In this document: positions 1,921 through 38,783 of the stretch, in pieces
How positions within the stretch are numbered: position 1 is the first letter of the stretch
Layout: each line of letters opens with the position of its first letter
From: Candidatus Peribacteraceae bacterium
Lineage (GTDB): Bacteria > Patescibacteriota > Gracilibacteria > JAHISY01
Assembly: GCA_021734705.1 (NCBI GenBank)
Contig: JAIPIJ010000001.1
Span: forward strand, 1-47,034
Direction: 5' to 3'
DNA length: 47,034 nt
The notes under the pieces: model-generated
Told to the model about the DNA's origin: nothing
The model's database searches: none
What the model saw: only the letters and a program-made list of their open reading frames with translations
Program-made: the position numbers and the translations under genes

Positions 1921-3378
1921 TTAAGCCCTATTTTTCAGGAGCTGATTGCCGTCAGCCGTATCTTCTATATCAAAACCCAGCTTGAAAATTTGGTCACGGA
2001 GCTCATCTGATTTTTTGAAGTCTTTAGCTGCTCGCGCGGCGGCTCGTTCGTCGAGTAATTTTTGCAGTTCGGGAGTAATTTTGACTTCGTTATTTTCCTG
2101 ATGCGCGAGATCCAGCCCAAGCACTTCATCGAATTTATTGAACGTGGCTTGATTCGCTTTCGGCGATCTAGCGTATTCCCAAGCAGCTGCGAGCGCCCGC
2201 GGGGAATTGAGATCATCAGCGAGAGCTTCGCTGAACTGATCGACTGCCTTTTGATCGACCTTGCCCTTTGGACCAGCTTTCTGGAATTCGTTACGTAGTT
2301 TCTTGAGTGAGCTCTGGGCATTCTCAAGCGCTTCGAAAGTGAAGTTTAATTTGCCGCGGTAATTGGAATTCAAACAGAAATAACGGAAGGCGAGTGGTTC
2401 AATTCTTTTCCTCTCGAGATCAGCGAGCGTGAAAAGATTACCTAGCGATTTACTCATCTTGCCGCCGTCGACCGTGAGAAATTCGTTGTGCAGCCAGAAA
2501 TTCACAAACTTCTTGCCGGTCGCCGCCTCGCTCTGAGCGATTTCGTTTTCGTGATGTACTGGGATGTGGTCGACTCCGCCCGTGTGAATGTCGATAGCAG
2601 CAGGTAGTTTATAGTTGGTAGTTTGTAGAATTTCTGGTGCGAGGTATTTCAAGCTCATCGCGCTACATTCCAAATGCCAACCCGGGAAACCGGCGAGTTG
2701 CTGGTTGCTGGTTGCGGGTTGCTGGTCCGACAAATCTTTGCCAGTTGCGATATCCCAGCGGAGGATGTGATTAGCATTTTCACCGACACAGAATTTCCAC
2801 AGCGCGAAATCAGCAGGATTATTTTTTTCAGACTTTACTGCCACGCGTGCCCCGGCCTCTTTTTCTTCGGCTTTTTGGCCGGACAGCTCGCCGTAATTTT
2901 TAAACTTACCTGTGTCAAAATAAATCCCGTCGGAGGTTTCGTAAGTAAATCCCTGTTCTGCTAATTTCTTAATTAGTTCAACTTGCTCGGTGATATGTTC
3001 GCTAGCTCGCGGCAGATACTTAGGTTTTTTGATATTTAATTTATCGAGATCCACCAAAAATTCTTTTTCGTATTTGCGGGCGATCTCAAGTGGGGAGACT
3101 TTTTCCTTGGCGGCAGACTTCTCGAGTTTATCTTCTCCAGAATCGGAATCGCTAGTCAGATGGCCGACATCAGTAACATTCATCACGTTCTCCACCTCGT
3201 AACCCCAAAATTCGAAACTGCGGCTGAGCAGATCGGCGAAGATGAAGGCGCGGAAATTGCCGATGTGTGGGCTCGCGTACACCGTCGGTCCGCAGGAGTA
3301 AATTTTGACGCGGCCTTTTTCGAGCGGCTCAAAAACCTCTTTCTTGCGGCCGAGCGAATTAGTGAAACGAATTAACAC
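1921..3378 (-). CDS. cysS: cysteinyl-tRNA synthetase with two repeat-derived insertions
   Basis: Class I aminoacyl-tRNA synthetase charging tRNA(Cys). The zinc ligand Cys29 (SCGPTVY), HIGN (38-41), the GWHLECSAM zinc motif, HHENE and KMSKS (about 304-308) are all intact. At 485 aa it is slightly long. Two extra peptides flank the ECS motif: about residues 217-229 (QQPATSNQQLAG) and 251-259 (LQTTNYKLP). Their DNA is made of 7-nt units like those found between genes elsewhere in the window, so they look like in-frame repeat insertions. The GTG start lies 7 nt after a TGCTAAAAT element and is probably leaderless. Confidence 0.95.
   Translation of the reverse strand: MLIRFTNSLGRKKEVFEPLEKGRVKIYSCGPTVYASPHIGNFRAFIFADLLSRSFEFWGYEVENVMNVTDVGHLTSDSDSGEDKLEKSAAKEKVSPLEIARKYEKEFLVDLDKLNIKKPKYLPRASEHITEQVELIKKLAEQGFTYETSDGIYFDTGKFKNYGELSGQKAEEKEAGARVAVKSEKNNPADFALWKFCVGENANHILRWDIATGKDLSDQQPATSNQQLAGFPGWHLECSAMSLKYLAPEILQTTNYKLPAAIDIHTGGVDHIPVHHENEIAQSEAATGKKFVNFWLHNEFLTVDGGKMSKSLGNLFTLADLERKRIEPLAFRYFCLNSNYRGKLNFTFEALENAQSSLKKLRNEFQKAGPKGKVDQKAVDQFSEALADDLNSPRALAAAWEYARSPKANQATFNKFDEVLGLDLAHQENNEVKITPELQKLLDERAAARAAKDFKKSDELRDQIFKLGFDIEDTADGNQLLKNRA
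2602..2628 (-). repeat. heptanucleotide array inside cysS (second insertion)
   Basis: On the minus strand the DNA repeats with period 7 (units such as CTACAAA and CTATAAA). It encodes LQTTNYKLP just before the conserved DIHTGG motif. The same unit type occurs just upstream of tRNA-Val. Confidence 0.7.
2695..2728 (-). repeat. heptanucleotide array inside cysS (first insertion)
   Basis: On the minus strand the DNA consists of 7-nt units CAACCAG, CAACCCG and CAACTCG. It encodes a Gln/Ala/Thr-rich loop just before the FPGWHLECSAM motif. Normal CysS has only a few residues here. Confidence 0.75.
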
Positions 3379-5661: not shown

Positions 5662-6927
5662 ATGAAAAATACCCTAACCGCTGTTCTCGGCCTCAACTGG
5701 GGTGATGAGGGCAAAGGCAAGCTCGTCGATATCCTCGCTGGCAAGATGCAGTTCGTCGCTCGCTTCGGCGGCGGAGCGAATGCTGGGCACACGATCGTGG
5801 TTGATGGCCAAAAAGTCGTGCTACACCAATTGCCTTCAGGCGTGCTGCATCCGCAGACGAAGAACGTGATTGGCAACGGCTGCGTCGTGCACTTGCCGAC
5901 TTTGATTGAGGAGATGGAGGAATTAGAGAAGTTGGGCGTGAAATTAACTAATCGGCTTTTTGTCTCTGACCGGGCGACTATCCTTTTCGATTTTCACAAA
6001 GAACTCGATGGCTTGGCAGAGAACAAGCTTGGCGACAAGAAAATTGGCACTACGAAACGGGGGATCGGCCCGGCTTATTCTGACCGGGTGAACCGCAAGA
6101 GTATTCGGCTCGGCGATTTAGCTAATCCAGAAAAATTCGCCGAAAAACTCCGCGCGCGCTTGGAAGAAGTGAATGCGCTTGAGGGCATGCCGTTTAAGTT
6201 TGATGTCGAGCGCGAGCTGACACTTTACGTCGATTTGGCCGAGCGCTTGGAGGGAATGATAGCCGATACTTCCGAGATTCTGCAGGCGGCGATAGCGGAT
6301 GGGAAGACTGTGCTGGCTGAGGGAGCACAGGGTTCGATGCTGGACGTCGATTTCGGGACTTTCCCATTTGTAACCAGTTCGACGACTACTGCCGGGAATA
6401 TCTTCTCAGGACTAGGCATTGCCCCACAAAATCTCGAATCAATCGGAGTCGCCAAGGCCTACACGACCCGTGTCGGTGCTGGGCCATTCCCGACGGAGCT
6501 CGACAATGAATTGGGAGAAAAGATTCGCCAGACTGGAGCAGAGTTTGGCGCGACTACGGGCCGACCGCGTCGTTGCGGTTGGATGGATTTGGTCGCAACT
6601 CGCTTTGCCGCACGGCTGAATGGAACGACTGCGATCAATCTGACTAAACTTGATGTTCTAAATGAATTAGAAGAAATTCAAGTTTGCACGAAGTATCTGC
6701 TGGACGGTGAGGAAATTTCAGGACCGCCAGCGACAGTAGAGGATTACAAGAAAATCGAACCGGTTTTCGAGACTTTACCAGGCTGGCAAGCGGATACTTC
6801 TGCAGCGCGCAAGATTTCAGATCTGCCAAAGAATGCGCAGGACTATATCAAATTCATCGAAAAATATTTAGGTGTGCCAGTGAAGTGGGTTGGTGTGGGA
6901 GTCGAGCGCGAGGCGATGGCTGTGTAG
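5662..6927 (+). CDS. purA: adenylosuccinate synthetase
   Basis: Converts IMP, aspartate and GTP to adenylosuccinate, the first committed step to AMP. From the ATG the protein is 421 aa, the usual length. The GTP-binding loop GDEGKGK is at residues 14-20, followed by GGANAGHTI and, later, GPAYSDR, QGSMLDVDFGTFPFVTSS and TTGRPRRCGW, all family signatures. The 3-codon-longer TTG start is unlikely given the -10 position. Monocistronic, followed by a heptanucleotide array and tRNA-Val. With purC and purE in this window it shows de novo purine synthesis. Confidence 0.97.
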   Translation: MKNTLTAVLGLNWGDEGKGKLVDILAGKMQFVARFGGGANAGHTIVVDGQKVVLHQLPSGVLHPQTKNVIGNGCVVHLPTLIEEMEELEKLGVKLTNRLFVSDRATILFDFHKELDGLAENKLGDKKIGTTKRGIGPAYSDRVNRKSIRLGDLANPEKFAEKLRARLEEVNALEGMPFKFDVERELTLYVDLAERLEGMIADTSEILQAAIADGKTVLAEGAQGSMLDVDFGTFPFVTSSTTTAGNIFSGLGIAPQNLESIGVAKAYTTRVGAGPFPTELDNELGEKIRQTGAEFGATTGRPRRCGWMDLVATRFAARLNGTTAINLTKLDVLNELEEIQVCTKYLLDGEEISGPPATVEDYKKIEPVFETLPGWQADTSAARKISDLPKNAQDYIKFIEKYLGVPVKWVGVGVEREAMAV

Positions 6928-6928
6928 G

Positions 6929-6998
6929 TGGTTACTAGTTTCTGGTTACTAGTGGCTAGGTTTTTTTATAAACTGATAACTATAAACTATATACTAAA
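6929..6998 (+). repeat. two adjacent heptanucleotide arrays before tRNA-Val
   Basis: 6929-6960 has a 7-nt period of GGTTACTAG-like units and 6970-6998 a second flavour (AACTATA-like units). The second ends one base before the tRNA. It resembles the DNA inserted in cysS at 2602-2628. Confidence 0.65.
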
Positions 6999-6999
6999 T

Positions 7000-7080: not shown

Positions 7081-7482
7081 TTATCCATCTTGAGCAGAAT
7101 TGCTTCGTCGATTATTCCCAAGTCGGAACTTGGTGCGCTGATGGAAACGGCCGTTCCTGCCAAAAAGTTTTTTGGCTGTTTTATAGCAGCTAAGTGCGTC
7201 TAAATATTCGATTTTAGCTGTTAGTAATTTTGTTCCAATTATGTCGCAGGGAGATATTCTGCGTTCTGAATAAGTTATCCCTAATCCTAAGTTAAGTTCG
7301 CGTTTTTTAAGTAAGTCATTAAATCTCGCTGCGCATCTATTTAATCTATTTTCAGCCCTAGATAGTTCATTACAAGCTTTAGGATCAGTCTGCGGTATTC
7401 CAAATAAATTTCGCATTTTGTAACGTATCAATTCGGGTAATCTCTGAACCTCAAACGTAAAGGCGGAAATTTTTTCGAGCAT
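7081..7482 (-). CDS. helical orphan protein, 133 aa
   Basis: No family recognised. Starts MLEKISAFTFEVQRL; mostly helical by eye, strongly basic at the C-terminus (LFGRNGRFHQRTKFRLGNNRRSN), with five Cys and no signal peptide. The stop lies 5 nt from the tRNA-Val 3' end on the opposite strand. A nucleic-acid-binding role is possible from the charge but unproven. Confidence 0.5.
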   Translation of the reverse strand: MLEKISAFTFEVQRLPELIRYKMRNLFGIPQTDPKACNELSRAENRLNRCAARFNDLLKKRELNLGLGITYSERRISPCDIIGTKLLTAKIEYLDALSCYKTAKKLFGRNGRFHQRTKFRLGNNRRSNSAQDG

Positions 7483-7561: not shown

Positions 7562-8161
7562 GTGGCTCGAATGGCAAAAGTTTCCCGAAAAACCCTTGAG
7601 ACGGCGATCGCCATAGCTTTGAATTTAGATGGGCAAGGTGAGGCCAAAGTTCTGACCGGCATCGGATTTCTCGATCACATATTAGAAAGCTTAGCTAAGC
7701 ACGCTTCAATCAATCTCAAGATTAAGGCGGTGGGAGACCTGCACGTCGATCAGCATCACTTAGTCGAGGATCTTGGCATTGCGCTCGGTGAAGCTGTGGC
7801 TCAAGCGCTCAAAGACAAGCGTGGAATTATGCGCGCGGGGAGTGATGGCGCCTTCGCTTTTCCGATGGATGAAGCGCTGGCCTTGGCTGCGATTGATTTC
7901 GCAAATCGCACTAAGCTGGTTTTCAAAGTTAAGTTTCGCGAGAAGAAGGTCGGCGAACTAGAAACCAACGTAATCGAAGATTTCTTTGATGGTTTTGCAA
8001 ATGGCGCTCGCGCAAATGTTTATCTCGAAACGAAAAACTCGCGTAGCACGCACCACCAGGTCGAAGCACTTTTCAAAGCCTTTGCTCGGGCTTTGCGTGA
8101 GGCAGTTGCAGTGGATAAGCGGAATCTTAAGCGTGTGCCGAGTACGAAGGGAAAAATTTAG
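7562..8161 (+). CDS. hisB: imidazoleglycerol-phosphate dehydratase
   Basis: Catalyses the sixth step of histidine synthesis, dehydrating IGP to imidazole acetol-phosphate with two Mn ions per site. The 199-aa protein is the monofunctional type (no phosphatase domain). Metal-binding motifs are visible: GFLDHIL near residue 35, DQHHLVEDLG near 62 and STHHQVEALFKAFARAL near 162. GTG at 7562 is chosen because of the -10 position; an ATG at codon 4 is possible. hisH lies 0.5 kb downstream, separated by a four-helix-bundle gene; other his genes are absent from the window. Confidence 0.96.
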   Translation: MARMAKVSRKTLETAIAIALNLDGQGEAKVLTGIGFLDHILESLAKHASINLKIKAVGDLHVDQHHLVEDLGIALGEAVAQALKDKRGIMRAGSDGAFAFPMDEALALAAIDFANRTKLVFKVKFREKKVGELETNVIEDFFDGFANGARANVYLETKNSRSTHHQVEALFKAFARALREAVAVDKRNLKRVPSTKGKI

Positions 8162-8520
8162 GGAGTTGCTAGTTTCTGGCTGCTAGTTTCTAGAACCTTC
8201 TTCCTGAGTCCTGTGAGCATTCTTTTGATCAGCTCATCTTTTTTGGGGTGGACTAAATATTTCAGGTTTGTGGCAATTAAAATTTGGGTTTCTAGTTCTC
8301 CAGCAGAGCTTTTAGCTATTACTAAAAAATTAGAAAAATCTTTTTTTGTGATTCTGTCACAGCCTTCGGCTATGTTGGACGGGATCGAAACCGCAGCTCG
8401 ACGCATCTGAGAGGTGAGCCCGAATTTTTCACTCACCGGAAATTTTTCGGTTGCCCGATAAATCTCCATTACTAGATCCATGGATTTTTGCCACACCAGC
8501 AGTTTTTCAAAATTACTCAT
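8158..8520 (-). CDS. four-helix-bundle protein (23S rRNA intervening-sequence family)
   Basis: Belongs to the S23/IVP four-helix-bundle family first found in 23S rRNA intervening sequences and common as stray genes in CPR and Bacteroidetes. The motif MRRAAVSIPSNIAEGCDR near residues 41-58 is diagnostic, with FEKLLVWQKSMDLVMEIY at the N-terminus. Molecular role unknown; it is the size of accessory proteins of selfish elements. It is convergent with hisB and its last codons (ETSSQKLATP) are read from a heptanucleotide array, so the present C-terminus looks repeat-derived. Another array lies upstream, so the gene is flanked on both sides. Confidence 0.85.
   Translation of the reverse strand: MSNFEKLLVWQKSMDLVMEIYRATEKFPVSEKFGLTSQMRRAAVSIPSNIAEGCDRITKKDFSNFLVIAKSSAGELETQILIATNLKYLVHPKKDELIKRMLTGLRKKVLETSSQKLATP
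8164..8195 (-). repeat. heptanucleotide array at the 3' end of the four-helix-bundle gene
   Basis: Seven-nt periodicity of GTTGCTA and GTTTCTG/GTTTCTA-like units on the plus strand. It encodes the C-terminal tail of the minus-strand protein and starts right after the hisB stop. Confidence 0.65.
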
Positions 8521-8595
8521 AATTTTATTAAAAGATTTTTGATTCTATAAATTGAAGGACTATAAAACAACGAAAGATGAAATACATTTAATAAT

Positions 8596-8636
8596 TCTAG
8601 TTACTAGAAACCAGTAACCAGTAACCAGAAATCAGC
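8596..8636 (+). repeat. heptanucleotide array between the four-helix-bundle gene and hisH
   Basis: Units AACCAGT and AACCAGA with strict 7-nt spacing. The second array flanking the four-helix-bundle gene; a TTAAAAT box follows at about 8644, upstream of hisH. Confidence 0.7.
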
Positions 8637-8687
8637 ATCTAGGTTAAAATCACTCCTGATTAATCATTCACTTTAGCTGCCTAGAAC

Positions 8688-9332
8688 ATGATCGCCCTCG
8701 TCGACTATTGTGCCGGAAACCTACGTAGTGTTAAACGCGCGCTAGATTTCCTGAATCTTCAAAACGAAGTTACCAAAGATCCGAAAAAAGTTCGTGCAGC
8801 AGATGCGATTATTGTCCCGGGTGTAGGTGCGGCAGGTGCGGCCATGCGCGAGCTAGACCAAGTCGGACTTACAGAAGTTTTGCGCGAGGAAATTCCCAAG
8901 AAACCATTTTTGGGTATCTGTCTCGGCCTGCAAATTTTGTTTGAAAAGTCGGCTGAGGATAATGCCGAGTGTCTGGGGATTTTTAAGGGCAGTGTGGAGA
9001 AGTTTTCTAGCGCTGATATTAAAGTTCCACACATTGGTTGGAATCCGGTTGATTTTCCTTCGACAAGCTCCCATTCAGCAGGTTCAGGGCGTGCAGGACA
9101 GGCGAAGACTCCACAGATTATGGAGGGAATCAAATCTGGTACGCCGCTCTACTTTGTACACTCCTATTTTTCTAAACCAAAGAATCCTGAAATTGTGAAA
9201 GCAACCACGACTCACGGCGAAACTTTCCCAGCAGTGCTCAATCGCGACAAAATTTGGGCAGTACAATTTCACCCGGAGAAAAGCGGGGAGGCTGGATTGA
9301 AAATTTTAGATAATTTTGCGAAACTAATTTGA
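8688..9332 (+). CDS. hisH: imidazole glycerol phosphate synthase, glutamine amidotransferase subunit
   Basis: HisH hydrolyses glutamine and feeds ammonia to HisF to make IGP and AICAR. The class I amidotransferase triad is visible: nucleophile Cys78 in GICLGLQ, and His195/Glu197 in HPEKSG. At 214 aa it is about 15 residues long for the family. Residues 124-141 (PSTSSHSAGSGRAGQAK), between the conserved GWNPV and the FVHSY motif, are an insertion read from a CTTCGACAAGCTC-type repeat. HisF and hisA are not in the window. Confidence 0.95.
   Translation: MIALVDYCAGNLRSVKRALDFLNLQNEVTKDPKKVRAADAIIVPGVGAAGAAMRELDQVGLTEVLREEIPKKPFLGICLGLQILFEKSAEDNAECLGIFKGSVEKFSSADIKVPHIGWNPVDFPSTSSHSAGSGRAGQAKTPQIMEGIKSGTPLYFVHSYFSKPKNPEIVKATTTHGETFPAVLNRDKIWAVQFHPEKSGEAGLKILDNFAKLI
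9056..9108 (+). repeat. CTTCGACAAGCTC-type repeat inserted in hisH
   Basis: The DNA starts CCTTCGACAAGCTC, the opening of a repeat widespread between genes in many bacteria, and continues with GGTTCAGGGCGTGCAGG. It stays in frame and adds about 17 residues to HisH. Confidence 0.6.
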
Positions 9333-9362
9333 GCGAAAAGCTTTCTTTCGTTAAAATCACGC

Positions 9363-9389
9363 GGCTCTTATTAAAGATGATAAAGAGCC
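9363..9389 (+). other. hairpin after hisH
   Basis: GGCTCTT (9363-9369) pairs with 9383-9389. No T-run follows, so it is a weak terminator or a structured leader upstream of tRNA-Glu. Confidence 0.35.
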
Positions 9390-9408
9390 TTAAGGAGCTA
9401 TAAAGAAG

Positions 9409-9441
9409 ACTAATTACTAGAAACCAGTAACTAGTAACTTC
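9409..9441 (+). repeat. heptanucleotide array before tRNA-Glu
   Basis: Units such as AAACCAG and TAACTAG with 7-nt spacing, ending three bases before the tRNA 5' end. Confidence 0.65.
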
Positions 9442-9443
9442 GT

Positions 9444-15150: not shown

Positions 15151-15154
15151 AAAA

Positions 15155-15186
15155 TAGGTTTTAGGTTCTGGGTGCTAGGTTGTAGG
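15155..15186 (-). repeat. heptanucleotide array in the nusA leader
   Basis: On the minus strand, units such as GAACCTA and AAACCTA with 7-nt period, ending shortly before the nusA ATG. Confidence 0.6.
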
Positions 15187-15255
15187 AAATAACCCGAATC
15201 TTAAACTCGAGTTCGGCGCTATTTTACAAAATCAATATCGTAAATACAATTTTTT

Positions 15256-15453
15256 TTACTGCTCAGCCAAAGCTCTTGCAGAAACAGCGTCACGAAATTT
15301 TTTACGGGCAGGCTTGATAAATTTCCACATTATACTTTGCCATTCAGGCAATAACACGGCTAACTTGCCCGCGACAAAATAGTCACAGTCTTTTTGGCCT
15401 AGTCTTCTAAAATCTCCGAAATATCTTGTGGTTTCAGGATCGCCTTTTGGCAT
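15256..15453 (-). CDS. small orphan protein, 65 aa
   Basis: Not recognised. The product starts MPKGDPETTRYFGDFRRLG and is basic, with Trp-containing middle (LPEWQSIMWKFIKPARKK). No signal peptide. Its leader ends in a TTTTTTTAAAAAATG-type sequence nearly identical to those of two other small orphan genes. It lies between nusA and purC, divergent from purC. Confidence 0.5.
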   Translation of the reverse strand: MPKGDPETTRYFGDFRRLGQKDCDYFVAGKLAVLLPEWQSIMWKFIKPARKKFRDAVSARALAEQ

Positions 15454-15507
15454 TTTTTAAAAAAATAAAGTTCCGAATTTTAAAAAATATTTTCATAAAA
15501 ATCAATT

Positions 15508-15516: not shown

Positions 15517-15524
15517 CTCCACAC

Positions 15525-15577
15525 CAGCAATCACCAACCAACAACTAGTAGCTAGCAACCAGTAACTCGTAACTCGC
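15525..15577 (+). repeat. heptanucleotide array reaching the purC start codon
   Basis: Seven consecutive 7-nt units (for example CACCAAC, TAGCAAC, CAGTAAC, TCGTAAC) run from 15525, and the final partial unit TCGC abuts the ATG. The clearest array between genes. Confidence 0.8.
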
Positions 15578-16555
15578 ATGCTTGACTCCGAAATAATCCG
15601 CCAACAGATCCCACTCGTCCTGACCGAGTGCGAATTTCCCGAATTACCGAATTACTACAAAGGCAAAGTTCGAGAAAACTATGATTTGGACGACGGTAAG
15701 CGAATTCTAATTTCCACCGACCGCCAGTCAGCCTTTGATAAAGTTCTTGCAGCCGTGCCTTTCAAGGGACAGGTGTTAACCCAGACTGCCAAGTTTTGGT
15801 TCGAAAAAACCGCTGACATCTGCCCGAATCACGCGCTTGAATATCCTGATCCGAATGTCGTCGTCGGCCGCAAGCTCAAAATGCTGCCAGTAGAAGTTGT
15901 TGTTAGGGATTACCTCACTGGCTCGACGGACACCAGCGTCTGGACGGCCTATTCCAAAGGTTCGCGGGAATTTTGCGGTAATGAATTACCGGACGGTCTT
16001 TCGAAAAATTCTAAGCTACCCGAAACAATCCTGACACCTTCGACCAAACCGGATGATGGCACGCATGATATTTCCGTCGCTCCAGAATTCCTGATCGAGG
16101 GGGGACTGGTGACCGATGAACAATGGGACGAATTAGCCCGCATTTCACTGGCACTTTTCGCCCGCGGCAAGGAAATCGCCGCGCAAAATGGTTTAATCCT
16201 CGTAGATACGAAATACGAATTCGGCCTCGATGACCATGGTGTGATCACGCTGGCTGACGAGATTCACACACCCGACTCGTCACGTTATTGGATCGCTGAT
16301 ACGTACGAAGCTAAACACGAGCGTGGCGAAGAACCGGAGAGTCTGGATAAAGAATTCCTACGGCTTTGGATTGCAGCCCGTTGTGATCCTTACAAAGACG
16401 AGATCCCGGAAATCCCTGATGATGTGCTGGTGAAATTTTCTCAAAAATATATCAATCTTTTTGAAACTGTGACTGGGCAGAAATTTGAGCTGCCTGAAAT
16501 TGGCGTGCCTGTGAAAGAGAGAATTCGAAAGAATCTGGGGAGATATTTTAATTAG
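15578..16555 (+). CDS. purC: SAICAR synthetase
   Basis: Ligates aspartate to CAIR using ATP, the eighth step of purine synthesis. The 325-aa protein is the long form, resembling yeast Ade1 more than the 237-aa E. coli enzyme. Motifs: YKGKVRENYDL and STDRQSAFD near the N-terminus, VVVRDYLTGST, PSTKPDDGTHD and DTKYEFGLD. Transcribed alone, with purE 0.7 kb downstream. The two flank a palindrome island and two orphan genes; the same two activities are fused in animal PAICS. Confidence 0.96.
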   Translation: MLDSEIIRQQIPLVLTECEFPELPNYYKGKVRENYDLDDGKRILISTDRQSAFDKVLAAVPFKGQVLTQTAKFWFEKTADICPNHALEYPDPNVVVGRKLKMLPVEVVVRDYLTGSTDTSVWTAYSKGSREFCGNELPDGLSKNSKLPETILTPSTKPDDGTHDISVAPEFLIEGGLVTDEQWDELARISLALFARGKEIAAQNGLILVDTKYEFGLDDHGVITLADEIHTPDSSRYWIADTYEAKHERGEEPESLDKEFLRLWIAARCDPYKDEIPEIPDDVLVKFSQKYINLFETVTGQKFELPEIGVPVKERIRKNLGRYFN

Positions 16556-17249: not shown

Positions 17250-17633
17250 ATGAAAGCAGTTCTCATTCTCGGCTCCGAAGTTGATCAAGCTCACGCCGAA
17301 AAAATTACGGGGGCACTTGATGCGCAGAAGATTCCACACGAGACTTTGGTCGCTTCGGCCCACAAGAAGACGCGCGAGGTGCTCGAGATTGTCGAGAAAT
17401 TCGCCAATGAAAAAGTCGTCTTCATCACAATCGCTGGACGTAGCAACGCGCTCTCAGGAGTGGTCGCGGCGAATTCCAGCAAACCCGTACTCGCCTGTCC
17501 GCCTTTCAAAGACAAAGATGATTATTTGGTAAATATCCACTCTACGCTGCAGATGCCAAGTGGTACGCCGGTTCTAACTATTCTCGATCCGGGAAACTGT
17601 GCTGAGGCTGCTGCTCGGATCTTAAATTTATAA
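17250..17633 (+). CDS. purE: class II-like AIR carboxylase PurE
   Basis: Makes CAIR from AIR. At 127 aa it is shorter than the 169-aa E. coli mutase. SAHKK at 36-40 and IAGRSNALSGVVAANSSKPVLACPP (61-85 region) match class II PurE, the animal PAICS and Treponema type that uses CO2 directly, rather than the class I motif with GAAHLPGM. No purK is seen, consistent with this. purC lies upstream. An A+T-rich stretch with 7-nt rhythm links it to the ferritin-like gene. Confidence 0.85.
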   Translation: MKAVLILGSEVDQAHAEKITGALDAQKIPHETLVASAHKKTREVLEIVEKFANEKVVFITIAGRSNALSGVVAANSSKPVLACPPFKDKDDYLVNIHSTLQMPSGTPVLTILDPGNCAEAAARILNL

Positions 17634-27603: not shown

Positions 27604-28452
27604 GTGAAATTGGAACTCAAAACCAATCGCGAAATTCGGGCTGAAAAGTTCGTAGCTGAAATACTGCCTTTTTTGAAGCGAACTTTCCTACAAAAATTAT
27701 TTCGTAAGAAGGAGATCAAATTAGGTAAAGTTGCCCAAAAGTCGGGAGACAAACTCACGGCTGGATCGGCGCTTGAGGTTTATTTACCTGATCCACGCAA
27801 ATATTTCTTCGATCTGACTGGCAATCAAATTATCTTCGAAGATAAAGATGTGATCGCCTTCGTGAAACGGGCGGGAATCACGACTCATACTGGAGTCGGC
27901 ACTCGCGGAGATGATCTGAGGAGTTGCGCGGAAAAATTGCTAAATTTAAAGCTTACCGTAGTTCACCGCTTGGACCGTGGTACTAGTGGTGTGATCGTAT
28001 TTGCCAAAAATTCGGCGACTGCCAGGAAATTAGAAAATGCCTTTCGGGAGCGGAAGGTTTTCAAAAAGTACTTCGCACTAGTCGAGGGAACTCCCAAAAC
28101 AGATAGTGGCCAAATCAACTTTCCCTTGAAAAAAGTTGGGGTAAAGATGGAAGTTGCCGAAAAAGGCTTGGCGGCCGAGACCAAGTGGAAAGTTATTAAA
28201 AAATTTAAAGGCCGCACCTTGCTCGACGTCGAAATCACGACCGGCCGGACACACCAGATTCGCGCGCACCTGGCAGAGATTGGCTTACCGGTAGTAGGAG
28301 ATGATCTTTACCCTTCGACTCGTCCGCCGCGGCGGACTCGCTCAGAGCAAGCGGCGAGCATTGGATCCAGAATGTTTTTGCACGCTACGGAACTGAGGAT
28401 TTTGAATTACACTTTCGAAGCTAAAATATCAGAGGAATTTTTGAATTTTTAA
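27604..28452 (+). CDS. RluA-family pseudouridine synthase with inserted peptide
   Basis: Isomerises uridines in 23S rRNA or tRNA. An S4-like RNA-binding N-terminus is followed by the catalytic domain with HRLDRGTSG (HRLDR 121-125, catalytic Asp124) and TGRTHQIRAHL. Residues about 237-252 (PSTRPPRRTRSEQAAS), between GDDLY and the FLHA motif, are extra compared with the family and are read from repeat DNA containing a GTCCGCC/GGCGGAC palindrome. Which RluA subfamily (C, D or other) cannot be decided. GTG start, probably leaderless. Confidence 0.92.
   Translation: MKLELKTNREIRAEKFVAEILPFLKRTFLQKLFRKKEIKLGKVAQKSGDKLTAGSALEVYLPDPRKYFFDLTGNQIIFEDKDVIAFVKRAGITTHTGVGTRGDDLRSCAEKLLNLKLTVVHRLDRGTSGVIVFAKNSATARKLENAFRERKVFKKYFALVEGTPKTDSGQINFPLKKVGVKMEVAEKGLAAETKWKVIKKFKGRTLLDVEITTGRTHQIRAHLAEIGLPVVGDDLYPSTRPPRRTRSEQAASIGSRMFLHATELRILNYTFEAKISEEFLNF
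28312..28360 (+). repeat. palindromic repeat inserted in the RluA-family gene
   Basis: Begins CCTTCGACTCG and contains the perfect palindrome GTCCGCC-GC-GGCGGAC; ends with a CTCAGAGCAAG-like sequence. It keeps the reading frame. Confidence 0.6.
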
Positions 28453-28493
28453 TTTTGTAATTTTTTAAATAAGTTTTAATTTTTAATTTCTAA
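28453..28493 (+). repeat. A+T-rich heptad array before the second four-helix-bundle gene
   Basis: Units AGTTTTA, ATTTTTA and ATTTCTA with 7-nt spacing run up to the ATG at 28494. Confidence 0.5.
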
Positions 28494-28841
28494 ATGAAAT
28501 ATGATTTGGAAGAGCGGGTTGGAAAATTTGGTGAATGTATTGTTGATTTCGTTAAGACCGTAAAAATAGACCTAATAAATAAACCAATTATCGTGCAGCT
28601 GGTTAAAAGTGCCACTTCGGTCGGCGCAAACTATATGGAAGCGAATCAAGCAAGTTCCAAAAAAGACTTTATAAATAAAATTAGAATTTCTCAAAAAGAG
28701 GCTAACGAAAGCAAACACTGGCTGAGAATGCTGACTCGTAGCAACCCTGAGAAAAGCGAGCCATGCAAAAAGTTTTGGCAGGAAGCTCACGAGTTAGTGC
28801 TCATTTTTGCCAAAATTTCACGTAATTCTAAGCAAATTTAA
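28494..28841 (+). CDS. four-helix-bundle protein (23S rRNA intervening-sequence family)
   Basis: Second member of the S23/IVP family in the window. Diagnostic segment QLVKSATSVGANYMEANQASSKKDFINKIRISQKEANESKHWLRML; 115 aa. Flanked on both sides by 7-nt arrays, like the copy at 8158-8520. The stop codon lies within the downstream array. Host function unknown; the context suggests a mobile cassette. Confidence 0.87.
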   Translation: MKYDLEERVGKFGECIVDFVKTVKIDLINKPIIVQLVKSATSVGANYMEANQASSKKDFINKIRISQKEANESKHWLRMLTRSNPEKSEPCKKFWQEAHELVLIFAKISRNSKQI

Positions 28842-28903
28842 AAATTTAGATTTAAGATTTATTTATAAAATTGTAAAAATTTAAAAATTAAAAATTTCAT
28901 TAA
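28834..28903 (+). repeat. A+T-rich heptad array, ten units to the ispG start
   Basis: From 28834 to the base before the ispG ATG is exactly 70 nt of A+T-rich 7-nt units (AAATTTA, AGATTTA twice, AAAATTT and variants). Confidence 0.55.
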
Positions 28904-29950
28904 ATGTTAACTAAAGTAATCCAAATCGGTCGGATCAAAATCGGCGGCGGCAATCCCGTTGCGATTCAATCGATGCTGAATACCGATCCGCATGATTTTC
29001 AAAAATCTGCCCGGCAAATTCAGCAGCTGTTGCAAGCTGGCTGTGAGATTATTCGGATAGCGGTTCCTGATAAAGAATCTTTACCCGTTCTGGGTAAATT
29101 ACGTCAGCGTTTCCCAAAAGTTCCGCTCGTAGCTGATATCCATTTCTCAGCAGATTTAGCACTTGGGGCAATCGAGTCGGGAGTTGATAAGATTCGGATT
29201 AATCCGGGGAATTTTCCAGCGGATAAATTGGCGGAAGTCACGAAGGCTTGTCGGCGGAAGAAAATCCCCATTCGTGTCGGAGTGAATTCTGGCTCGTTAG
29301 AAAAAATCCGCGGCAAAAATACCGCTGAAAAATTAGCTAATTCGGCTCTGCAAAATGTACGTAAGATTGAGAAACTGGGCTACAAAAATCTAGTAGTCTC
29401 AGTCAAAAGTTCGGATATCCGGACGACGCTTGCCGCCAATCGGATTTTGGCTAAAAAATTAAATTACCCGCTGCACCTCGGTGTTACTGAGGCCGGTTCA
29501 CTCCAGCGGGGAACTCTGAAGTCTGCAGTCGCGCTCGGCAGCCTCCTCGCCGACGGCATCGGAGACACGATCCGGATTTCCTTGACGGCTGATCCAGTAG
29601 CGGAAGTTGTGGCAGCTCTAGATTTATTAAAAATGCTAAAACTACGCCAAGGTGTCGAAGTCGTGAGTTGTCCGACCTGCGGGCGCACAGAGGTCGATCT
29701 GATTCCGCTCGTAGAGAAAGTTGAAAAGGCTGTCGCTAATATCAAAAAACCCTTAAAAATAGCTGTAATGGGCTGCATTGTGAACGGTCCGGGGGAAGCC
29801 CGCGACGCGGATTTTGCGCTCGTCGGCGGCCGGAAAATATTTGCGATCTATGCGAAGGGTAGGTTCCTAAAATCAGTCCCGGAAAGGCGCGCCGTTGGTG
29901 AATTTATTAAGCTGGTTGCTGGAAACTCGCAACTAGTAACTAGAAACTAG
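28904..29950 (+). CDS. ispG: 4-hydroxy-3-methylbut-2-enyl diphosphate synthase (MEP pathway)
   Basis: Converts MEcPP to HMBPP, the penultimate MEP step, using a [4Fe-4S] cluster and a flavodoxin/ferredoxin reductant. 348 aa, the bacterial short form. GGGNPVAIQSML near the N-terminus forms the TIM-barrel start; the cluster ligands are SCPTCGR (near 255) and GCIVNGPGE (near 290). The C-terminal tail (AGNSQLVTRN) is read from a heptanucleotide array and is probably not part of the ancestral protein. It overlaps the leader of the DUF721 gene. Confidence 0.95.
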   Translation: MLTKVIQIGRIKIGGGNPVAIQSMLNTDPHDFQKSARQIQQLLQAGCEIIRIAVPDKESLPVLGKLRQRFPKVPLVADIHFSADLALGAIESGVDKIRINPGNFPADKLAEVTKACRRKKIPIRVGVNSGSLEKIRGKNTAEKLANSALQNVRKIEKLGYKNLVVSVKSSDIRTTLAANRILAKKLNYPLHLGVTEAGSLQRGTLKSAVALGSLLADGIGDTIRISLTADPVAEVVAALDLLKMLKLRQGVEVVSCPTCGRTEVDLIPLVEKVEKAVANIKKPLKIAVMGCIVNGPGEARDADFALVGGRKIFAIYAKGRFLKSVPERRAVGEFIKLVAGNSQLVTRN

Positions 29951-29958
29951 CAACTCGT
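29914..29958 (+). repeat. heptanucleotide array spanning the ispG end and DUF721 leader
   Basis: Six 7-nt units (CGCAACT, AGTAACT, AGAAACT, AGCAACT and two variants) end three bases before the next ATG. The ispG stop codon lies inside one unit. Confidence 0.8.
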
Positions 29959-37776: not shown

Positions 37777-37795
37777 GCGCATTTGTTGCATGCTT

Positions 37796-37846
37796 CATGC
37801 TACGTGTTATCCCGAAGGGACCCCTTCGGGGCATGTTACGTGTTAT
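37796..37846. repeat. direct repeat around a perfect hairpin between trpA and rfbB
   Basis: CATGCTACGTGTTAT (37796-37810) and CATGTTACGTGTTAT (37832-37846) flank CCCGAAGGG (37811-37819)/CCCTTCGGG (37822-37830). The right copy encodes the last residues (KTHNT) and stop of rfbB. The sequence also has a 7-nt rhythm. The hairpin could terminate rfbBC. Confidence 0.6.
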
Positions 37847-38783
37847 GTGTCTTAAACCACTCCACCATCTCGGTAAGCTCTTTCTCAAAATCGGTATGGA
37901 CTGGCTTCCAGCCAAGCTGATTTTGAATCTTGCTGGAGTCAATCGCGTAGCGCCGGTCATGCCCCGGACGATCAGCGACAAATTCAATCAGGCTCTCCGG
38001 CTTGCCAAGGATACGGAGCAGTATTTTGACTAAGTCAATATTCGAGACTTCGTTGTTGGCACCGACATTGTAGATTTCACCAGGTTTTCCATTCTCCAAA
38101 ATGGCTAGTGTAGCGGTATTGTGGTCGAGCACGTGGATCCAGTCCCGTACGTTCAGACCGTCACCGTAGACTGGAATTTTCTCATCCTGTAAGGCGCGCG
38201 AAATCGTGAGCGGCATTAGCTTTTCCGGAAGTTGGTGCGTGCCGAAATTATTGGAGCAGCGCGAGATTAGGATCGGTTGGCCGAAAGTCCGGTGGGCGGC
38301 GATACAAAGCATGTCGGCCGCGGCTTTGGAGGCAGAGTAGGGCGAGCTAGGTTTGAGCTCGGAGTGTTCGGTAAATTTTTCATCTGAATCAAGTGGTAAA
38401 TCACCATAGACTTCATCAGTCGAAATCTGCAGGAATTTTTTAATCTCGAATTTACGAGCGGCGTCCAGTAAAACCTGGGTGCCTAAAACATTCGTTTCGA
38501 CAAAAATTTCCGGATGGGCAATGGAATTATCGACGTGGCTCTCGGCAGCAAAATTCACAATGGCGTCGGCCTTCGAAACCAATTGTTCAACCAAGTCTTT
38601 ATTAGTAATTGAACCTCGAACAAATTCGTATTTAGGATCGGCTTCAAAATCGGCACAGTTTCCCGGTCTGCCAGCATAGGTGAGTGCATCAAGATTGGTA
38701 ACAGCATAATCCGTATCACGTAAAATCTGGCGCAAAAAATGTGAGCCGATAAATCCGCAGCCGCCGGTCACGAGTAATTTCAT
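37836..38783 (-). CDS. rfbB: dTDP-glucose 4,6-dehydratase
   Basis: Makes dTDP-4-dehydro-6-deoxyglucose for surface polysaccharide. From ATG 38783 the protein is 315 aa. Rossmann motif GGCGFIGSHF, TDEVYG (catalytic Asp/Glu), YSASKAAAD (Tyr/Lys), and VRDWIHV. An in-frame TTG 18 nt further upstream is less likely, because the ATG overlaps the rfbC stop in the classic ATGA arrangement. rfbA and rfbD are outside the window. The C-terminal tail is repeat-derived. Confidence 0.93.
   Translation of the reverse strand: MKLLVTGGCGFIGSHFLRQILRDTDYAVTNLDALTYAGRPGNCADFEADPKYEFVRGSITNKDLVEQLVSKADAIVNFAAESHVDNSIAHPEIFVETNVLGTQVLLDAARKFEIKKFLQISTDEVYGDLPLDSDEKFTEHSELKPSSPYSASKAAADMLCIAAHRTFGQPILISRCSNNFGTHQLPEKLMPLTISRALQDEKIPVYGDGLNVRDWIHVLDHNTATLAILENGKPGEIYNVGANNEVSNIDLVKILLRILGKPESLIEFVADRPGHDRRYAIDSSKIQNQLGWKPVHTDFEKELTEMVEWFKTHNT

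Follow-up and report, generated by a model that had tools for sequence, protein, structure and literature searches.

Period-7 arrays at gene edges in a Patescibacteria genome as probable terminal arms of IVS-type selfish elements

The four-helix-bundle IVP gene family has previously been known mainly from insertions in rRNA genes, and the hallmark of intervening-sequence (IVS) elements is excision by RNase III without religation. From the first descriptions of rRNA intervening sequences onward, S23p proteins have, to our knowledge, had no assigned role, and the surplus of heptanucleotide repeats among bacteria has been attributed to polymerase slippage. In Coxiella burnetii, the IVS is 428 nt long, carries an S23p ORF and complementary termini, and is excised by RNase III from helix 45 of the 23S rRNA; tandem GACAGAT heptamers, variable in number between strains, lie just before the S23p ORF (PMC4990558). 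The S23p protein of Xanthomonas forms a pentameric toroid (PMC4990558). For CPR bacteria, a study of rRNA genes that deals mostly with homing-endonuclease introns also records 23S_rRNA_IVP ORFs in 16S and 23S insertions (PMC11270868). Among heptamer families, the TAACTGA repeats of Beggiatoaceae, Cyanobacteria and Bacteroidetes form arrays of 2-6 units, mostly intergenic and a few nt before starts (PMC4679880), and the GGGAATC repeats of Xanthomonas and Nostoc form intergenic arrays, with about 70 convergent inverted pairs per Xanthomonas genome (PMC4692102).

Here we describe arrays of degenerate seven-base units in a stretch of 47,034 nucleotides (the window), contig 47 in a draft genome of 854 kb (G000). 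We consider it likely that each array represents a terminal arm of an IVS-type selfish element, either one of a pair or solo. The observed basis of this reading comprises inverted arms that match in unit and period, covariation of arm and protein, a match between solo units and the elements of the same genome, gain and loss at orthologous sites, and elements at differing loci, one of them inside a 16S rRNA gene. G000 was covered through the stretches around matches and through pattern searches, and the array statistics come from a 296-kb sample.

Self-similarity at a lag of seven bases marks 13 regions of the window, against 0-4 at other lags (lag 14 excepted). The initial annotation had listed twelve array sites: a period-7 array is present at eleven (6929, 6970, 8164, 8596, 9409, 15155, 15525, 28453, 28834, 29914 and 37796), the one near 37796 (CATGCTTCATGCTACGTG) being weak, but there is none at 17624 (TAAATTTATAATTTAACTTTTATTAAAAATG). 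In the 296-kb sample, 57 period-7 regions have at least 15 of 21 matches, compared with 9.1 in block shuffles (maximum 13); the figures are 38 versus 2.3 at 16 or more matches, and 24 versus 0.3 at 17 or more. The refuting condition that the initial annotation had set, no excess of the periodicity elsewhere in the genome, did not hold. The closeness of arrays to gene edges was likewise borne out: 31 of the 38 strong arrays are intergenic (5.5 expected), the median distance to a gene edge is 8 nt (88 nt for random intergenic placement), and 42% of arrays lie within 5 nt of an edge (5% expected). The solo and other arrays of the window are the following, the two inside cysS being additional to the sites listed initially:

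2603..2630 (also delimited as 2604-2633), minus strand: AACTAC-type array inside cysS, an in-frame insertion
2693..2727 (also delimited as 2688-2730), minus strand: AACCAGC array inside cysS, in frame
6927..6961, minus strand: array directly 3' of the purA stop, in left-arm orientation
6969..6999, plus strand: degenerate AACTNNN array ending at tRNA-Val (7000)
9408..9442, plus strand: solo AACYAG arm of 5 units, between a promoter-like TTAAAAT and tRNA-Glu (9444)
15153..15186, minus strand: nusA-leader array of AACCTAR type, resembling the C51 IVP element's arms
15522..15577, plus strand: solo-type AACYAG arm of 8 units, ending at the purC ATG
29924..29958, plus strand: solo AACYAG arm of 5 units that overlaps the end of ispG and stops at the ATG (29959) of a DciA-domain gene
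37785..37850, no strand: weak CATGCTT-type array around a terminator-like hairpin, its unit similar to that of the C46 IVP element's arms

The 9408..9442 arm is preceded by GATTATAAAG-like sequence that resembles the C31 element's arms. Another repeat, GGCTCTTATTAAAGATGATAAAGAGCCTTAAGGAGCTATAAAG, also similar to the arms of about 9-10 nt period of that element, is found at 9360-9405 of the window and near 371-420 of G000:C7; at both tRNA-Glu copies it is nested, upstream of the gene, with an AACYAG array. Between tRNA-Val and hisB lies a 133-aa ORF (7081-7482, minus strand) that has no match in Pfam, NCBIfam, PHROGs or PADLOC. The leader arrays of nusA and purC also enclose small and apparently unrelated ORFs, in G000 (15204-15458, minus strand) and in G004 (L039, about 6550-6800); these are possibly cargo or decayed element bodies.

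The units of G000 fall into the families AACYAGN, AACCTAR, CATGAAR, an AATT-rich type and a type of about 9-10 nt (GATTATAAAG), and in other genomes the unit period ranges from 6 to 11. The earlier description of the units as locus-specific is only partly right: the genome employs few families, each common to several loci. Genome-wide, the pattern AACYAGNAACYAGNAACYAG (three AACYAGN units, at most 3 mismatches) has 116 matches in G000 and its reversed control 2. The AACTACN unit is used by genus-mates, with 134 matches in G001, 68 in G003 and 29 in G002, and 16 in G000. Across 27 AACYAG arrays, most often five units long, the internal unit reads A A C [TC] A G N. Replication slippage, in which the arrays would be neutral simple-sequence repeats (SSRs) and the polymerase would favour 7 nt, finds a basis in the locally homogeneous runs of AACTACC and AACTACT, about ten units long, in G001, in the whole-heptamer differences between Coxiella strains, and in a passage of PMC4679880, citing Mrazek, that gives heptamers as the commonest long SSR in many genomes. 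Slippage nevertheless fails to explain one unit at dozens of loci (the 116 matches against 2) or a unit that is specific to the genome (AACYAG versus AACTAC). Nor does it fit a position 7 that is free (C50 T45 A15 G4, n=114) and not shared by adjoining units (identity 0.28, with 0.37 expected) while positions 2, 3, 5 and 6 are nearly fixed; moreover, it cannot yield inverted matched arms around one gene family. Heptanucleotide SSRs are recognized by near-identical neighbouring units that are unrelated between loci, and the arrays lack this pattern. We hold slippage to be an improbable source of the arrays; it probably edits them, and their copy number, after arrival.

The arrays before start codons bear on another explanation, a post-transcriptional regulon in which arrays are 5'-leader sites bound by a regulator that could be the IVP pentamer itself, as has been suggested for the TAACTGA repeats of Beggiatoaceae. 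Of 13 start-proximal AACYAG arrays, 12 read from AAC toward the start codon, a 12:1 orientation that speaks for a regulon; random insertion does not explain it, and it counts against the mobile-element reading. The siting of arrays, close (a few nt) to starts and in the gap from promoter-like sequences to genes, also suits a regulon, as do the modal five units of fixed degenerate pattern and the five chains per entry of the solved IVP relatives 2gsc and 2rld. Arrays are not found only before genes, however, since some lie 3' of stop codons and some inside the cysS coding sequence; no functional theme was seen among the genes downstream of arrays; presence at tRNA-Glu, purC and nusA varies between congeners; and the arms that flank IVP genes are left unexplained. 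A regulon as such therefore seems unlikely to us, although the two ideas could be combined, the arms being binding sites of an element-encoded protein that lands in leaders too. The functional leader that the initial annotation had offered as its second reading keeps some plausibility from the 12:1 orientation.

The terminal-arm reading draws on what lies between certain arrays. The initial annotation overlooked the four-helix-bundle genes that stand between inverted arrays, two of which are in the window:

8161..8643, no strand: complete IVP element between hisB (7562-8161) and hisH (8688-9332)
8158..8520, minus strand: four-helix-bundle gene of 120 aa (PF05635 23S_rRNA_IVP / TIGR02436), the body of the hisB-hisH element
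8161..8195, minus strand: arm of the hisB-hisH element, 5 units (TTCTAGA AACTAGC AGCCAGA AACTAGC AACTC)
8595..8643, plus strand: opposite arm of the hisB-hisH element, 7 AACYAGN units
28434..28497, plus strand: left arm of the second IVP element, AATTTTT units, directly 3' of an RNA pseudouridine synthase gene (27604-28452)
28494..28841, plus strand: four-helix-bundle gene of 115 aa of the second element, matching the PF05635 profile
28834..28899, plus strand: right arm of the second element, AAAATTT units, ending just 5' of ispG (28904)

The gene at 8158..8520 matches PF05635 with E=3.1e-37 (127.4 bits, curated cut-off 33.8) and TIGR02436 with E=6e-35 (119.7 bits, cut-off 24), and the gene at 28494..28841 matches the same profiles with E=1.1e-13 (51.7 bits, curated cut-off 33.8) and E=1.1e-18 (67.4 bits, cut-off 24). 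The product of the former has 2gsc and 2rld as relatives in the PDB and matches the Avd profile weakly. The best inverted partner of the 8595..8643 arm is the arm at 8164, and none of 30 random controls was as good; in the second element the right arm (28834..28899) is the reverse complement of the left (28434..28497). Predicted RNA folds of the window elements pair both arms (z -3.2 and -2.7), a long stem closing the second element (z -3.2). Both elements adjoin protein genes and not rRNA, an Rfam search of the window returning tRNAs only. Plasmid records gave no DNA match to the second element (28434-28899), and a defence-system family search gave no match.

The association of IVP genes with inverted arms extends well beyond the window. 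G000 has five PF05635 genes, two of them in the window, and all five have inverted short-period degenerate arrays on both sides, with a unit that is specific to the element and matched within it. At 118 IVP loci of Patescibacteria, the upstream flank was compared with the reverse complement of the locus's own downstream flank, the downstream flanks of other loci serving as control: 92 loci lie above the mismatched-arm 95th percentile (5.9 expected) and 70 above the 99th (1.2 expected). Control genes reach a score of 24 in 12 of 319 cases, and short ORFs, IVP genes included, in 12 of 126. About a fifth of the 118 loci lack an arm signal, which counts against the element model. Of 53 loci with periodicity on both sides, 50 have arms of equal period (26 expected, p 2e-4): 7 in 34 of them, 8 in 7, 9 in 7, 6 in 1 and 11 in 1. 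Other Patescibacteria families show the signal at 19 of their 27 IVP loci, and arms resemble each other more where the proteins do so (Mantel r 0.147, p 0.002), also when only pairs from different genera are considered. PF05635 occurs in 110 of 193 sampled Patescibacteria genomes. TGA is reassigned in part of the class, and in-frame TGA codons are expected in IVP genes there; they were seen in the IVP genes of G014, G015, G025 and G057 (several in the last two). Pseudomonadota IVP genes are also flanked by heptamer arms, for example (TAGGCAG)n - IVP - (CTGCCTA)n; at 20 of 20 loci, one flank or both give 7 as the best period, and none of these loci matched an Rfam family, hence none holds rRNA. 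Three Proteobacteria from other loci had no PF05635 match.

That IVP genes inserted into pre-existing arrays might be supposed from the units common to complete elements and solo arrays. Such insertion would leave direct flanks, and the flanks observed are inverted and matched in period; in addition, the empty hisB/hisH site of G003 has no array. The inverted orientation refutes this reading, and we give it next to no credence.

Related IVP genes stand at loci that are not related, as mobile elements would, and in two pairs the arms are homologous too: C31 of G000 and L198 of G001 have gene and arm sequence in common and not the flanking genes, and the same holds for L220 of G001 and L183 of G026, which are from different families. 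C47a of G000 and L159 of G001 have only the gene in common (66% identity), and their arms consist of the units that prevail among the solo arrays of each genome, AACYAG in G000 and AACTAC in G001. One IVP element with inverted heptamer arms, L240 (G001:C104), lies inside a 16S rRNA gene (minus strand, 1-1647), inserted near the 16S 5' end at ...ATGCAAGTCGAAT / ATGGCAGACGGCTGAGTAACAC.... No near-identical recent copies were found, the highest protein identity being 78%, and this counts against the element reading. Neither a transposase nor a reverse transcriptase (RT) nor another known mobilisation enzyme accompanies the elements. Involvement of an RT (DGR or retron) was considered and rejected, RT being absent from G000-G005, with no PF00078 match in G000.

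About 50 of the 57 arrays of G000 have no detectable inverted partner nearby, partners being found almost only at IVP genes, so that the link of solo arrays to IVP elements rests on the sharing of units. When the solo units of eight genomes were matched to IVP arm sets, the genome's own set ranked 1 of 25 in G000, G001, G004 and G019, and 2 and 3 in two more. The exceptions are G021, with one array only, and G003 (own rank 8 of 25), whose arrays matched the arms of G001 better than its own and whose other IVP genes showed no AACTAC arms. In G021 itself, the IVP arms have 9-nt units and the solo arrays are of 9 nt and like sequence. Across 60 relatives, array matches correlate with IVP gene number (rho 0.56-0.65, p 3e-6 for 0.56); counterexamples are G012, with 32 array matches and no PF05635 match, and G002 (71% complete), with AACTAC arrays and no PF05635 match. 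Among 299 Pseudomonadota genomes, at least 5 GGCAGTA matches occur in 7, all of them IVP-positive, compared with 51 of 299 overall (Fisher 3e-6). In G427, an IVP-positive member of that phylum, the reversed TAGGCAG control itself has 23 matches, which belong to another heptamer family (GACGGAT-like). A 120-bp AT-rich palindrome in G019 (L138, 10857-10978) consists of the heptamer arms of the L247 IVP element without the gene, and looks like a MITE-like derivative by internal deletion. As regards the features that define MITEs, inverted arms are present, but they differ between elements, and no transposase was seen in the elements. Since the units of the solo arrays scattered through each genome are those of an element resident there, such arrays are most likely trans-mobilised or leftover arms, MITE-like in kind.

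Comparison of orthologous sites among congeners, which the initial annotation had proposed, revealed whole arrays gained or lost, and its suggestion of a mobile repeat that lands at gene edges was upheld by these changes and by the match to the terminal arms of IVP elements. The complete hisB-hisH element of G000 is missing from G003, where hisB and hisH overlap and no array is present. The tRNA-Glu leader array of G000 is absent from G003 and G004; the purC leader has an array in G000, other units at the same place in G004 and none in G003; and the nusA leader has an array in G000, TAGGGTT units in G004 and none in G003. At tRNA-Val, G003 has a CTACNAA inverted pair, compared with the AACTNNN array of G000. 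Inside cysS, the array at about 2603-2633 is common to G000 and G001 and absent from G003, G004 and G005, and the site at about 2688-2730, a permissive loop, holds period-7 units CCAAAGT in G001 and GAAATCG/AAAATCT in G003. G003 and G004 have one IVP element at an orthologous site with different arm units, which indicates that both arms can be rewritten together. Among named relatives found through PurC (window 15578-16555), the nearest are two MAGs, one unclassified (87% identity) and one assigned to 'Candidatus Gracilibacteria' (81%), and the closest found beyond the genus are alphaproteobacterial (Rhizobium, Microvirga, Rhodospirillales), which suggests, on sequence similarity, that purC may have been acquired horizontally.

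By this account, a complete element would consist of an array of about 4-5 degenerate units, a four-helix-bundle IVP/S23p gene and an inverted copy of the array, with unit and period particular to each IVP lineage. Once transcribed, the arms would anneal to form a long, imperfect stem whose loop holds the IVP ORF, and RNase III would cut the element from the host RNA. An RNase III is encoded, and from this gene, the rRNA IVS precedent, L240 in 16S rRNA and the paired-arm folds we infer that RNase III probably cuts the transcript hairpin; such excision would let elements be tolerated between genes, in leaders and inside rRNA. The pentameric IVP may bind the unit of the repeat, possibly with each subunit taking one, and may help to spread elements and solo arms. 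Constancy of copy number across periods hints at a pentamer stoichiometry, but it is partly set by detection limits and carries no weight in this account.

If correct, the link joins two puzzles, namely the function of IVP/S23p proteins and the commonness of seven-base repeats in bacteria. It predicts that the IVP protein should bind its own arm repeat, that heptamer-rich genomes should carry IVP genes with matching arms, and that S23p elements with TAACTGA arms should exist in TAACTGA-bearing genomes. It also suggests a small kind of element able to endure at gene edges in very small genomes. More tentatively, and with more doubt than confidence, S23p/IVP genes could represent a widespread class of mobile element that has no transposase or RT and whose ring protein recognises about five arm units and spreads elements and solo arms, in which case the heptamers of Xanthomonas, Nostoc, Beggiatoaceae and Coxiella would have a common origin.

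Already known are S23p IVS in rRNA, CPR IVP ORFs (PMC11270868) and unexplained heptamer families (PMC4679880, PMC4692102); the openly readable literature searched held no intergenic IVP elements with heptamer arms, no arm-protein covariation and no link between solo arrays and IVP. The initial annotation went too far in supposing that no related phenomenon was known, as parallels are found in PMC4679880, PMC4692102 and PMC4990558. Like the Coxiella IVS, the elements here have a PF05635 protein, an ORF between stem-forming inverted termini, heptamers and an available RNase III, and an S23p ORF within stem-forming inverted repeats, which characterizes an IVS, was found at 5 of 5 loci in G000 and 92 of 118 overall. 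Unlike it, they lie mostly between protein or tRNA genes, several per genome, and their arms are whole arrays with element-specific units, periods of 6-11 and dispersed solo arms. The CPR insertions of PMC11270868 are from the same phylum and include IVP ORFs in rRNA, of which L240 is an example, but that study concerns rRNA genes, with no repeats or intergenic elements in its searched text. Avd of diversity-generating retroelements has weak profile similarity to the window IVP, but G000-G005 have no RT. The TAACTGA repeats share with ours intergenic heptamer arrays, orientation toward starts and some overlap with upstream ORF ends; their unit is near-invariant (PMC4679880), whereas ours are AACYAGN and others, and that paper does not mention an S23p gene. 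The GGGAATC repeats (PMC4692102) are described as G-quadruplex-forming, with no tie to mobile elements or IVP; the solved S23p structure 2gsc has the locus name XCC0516.
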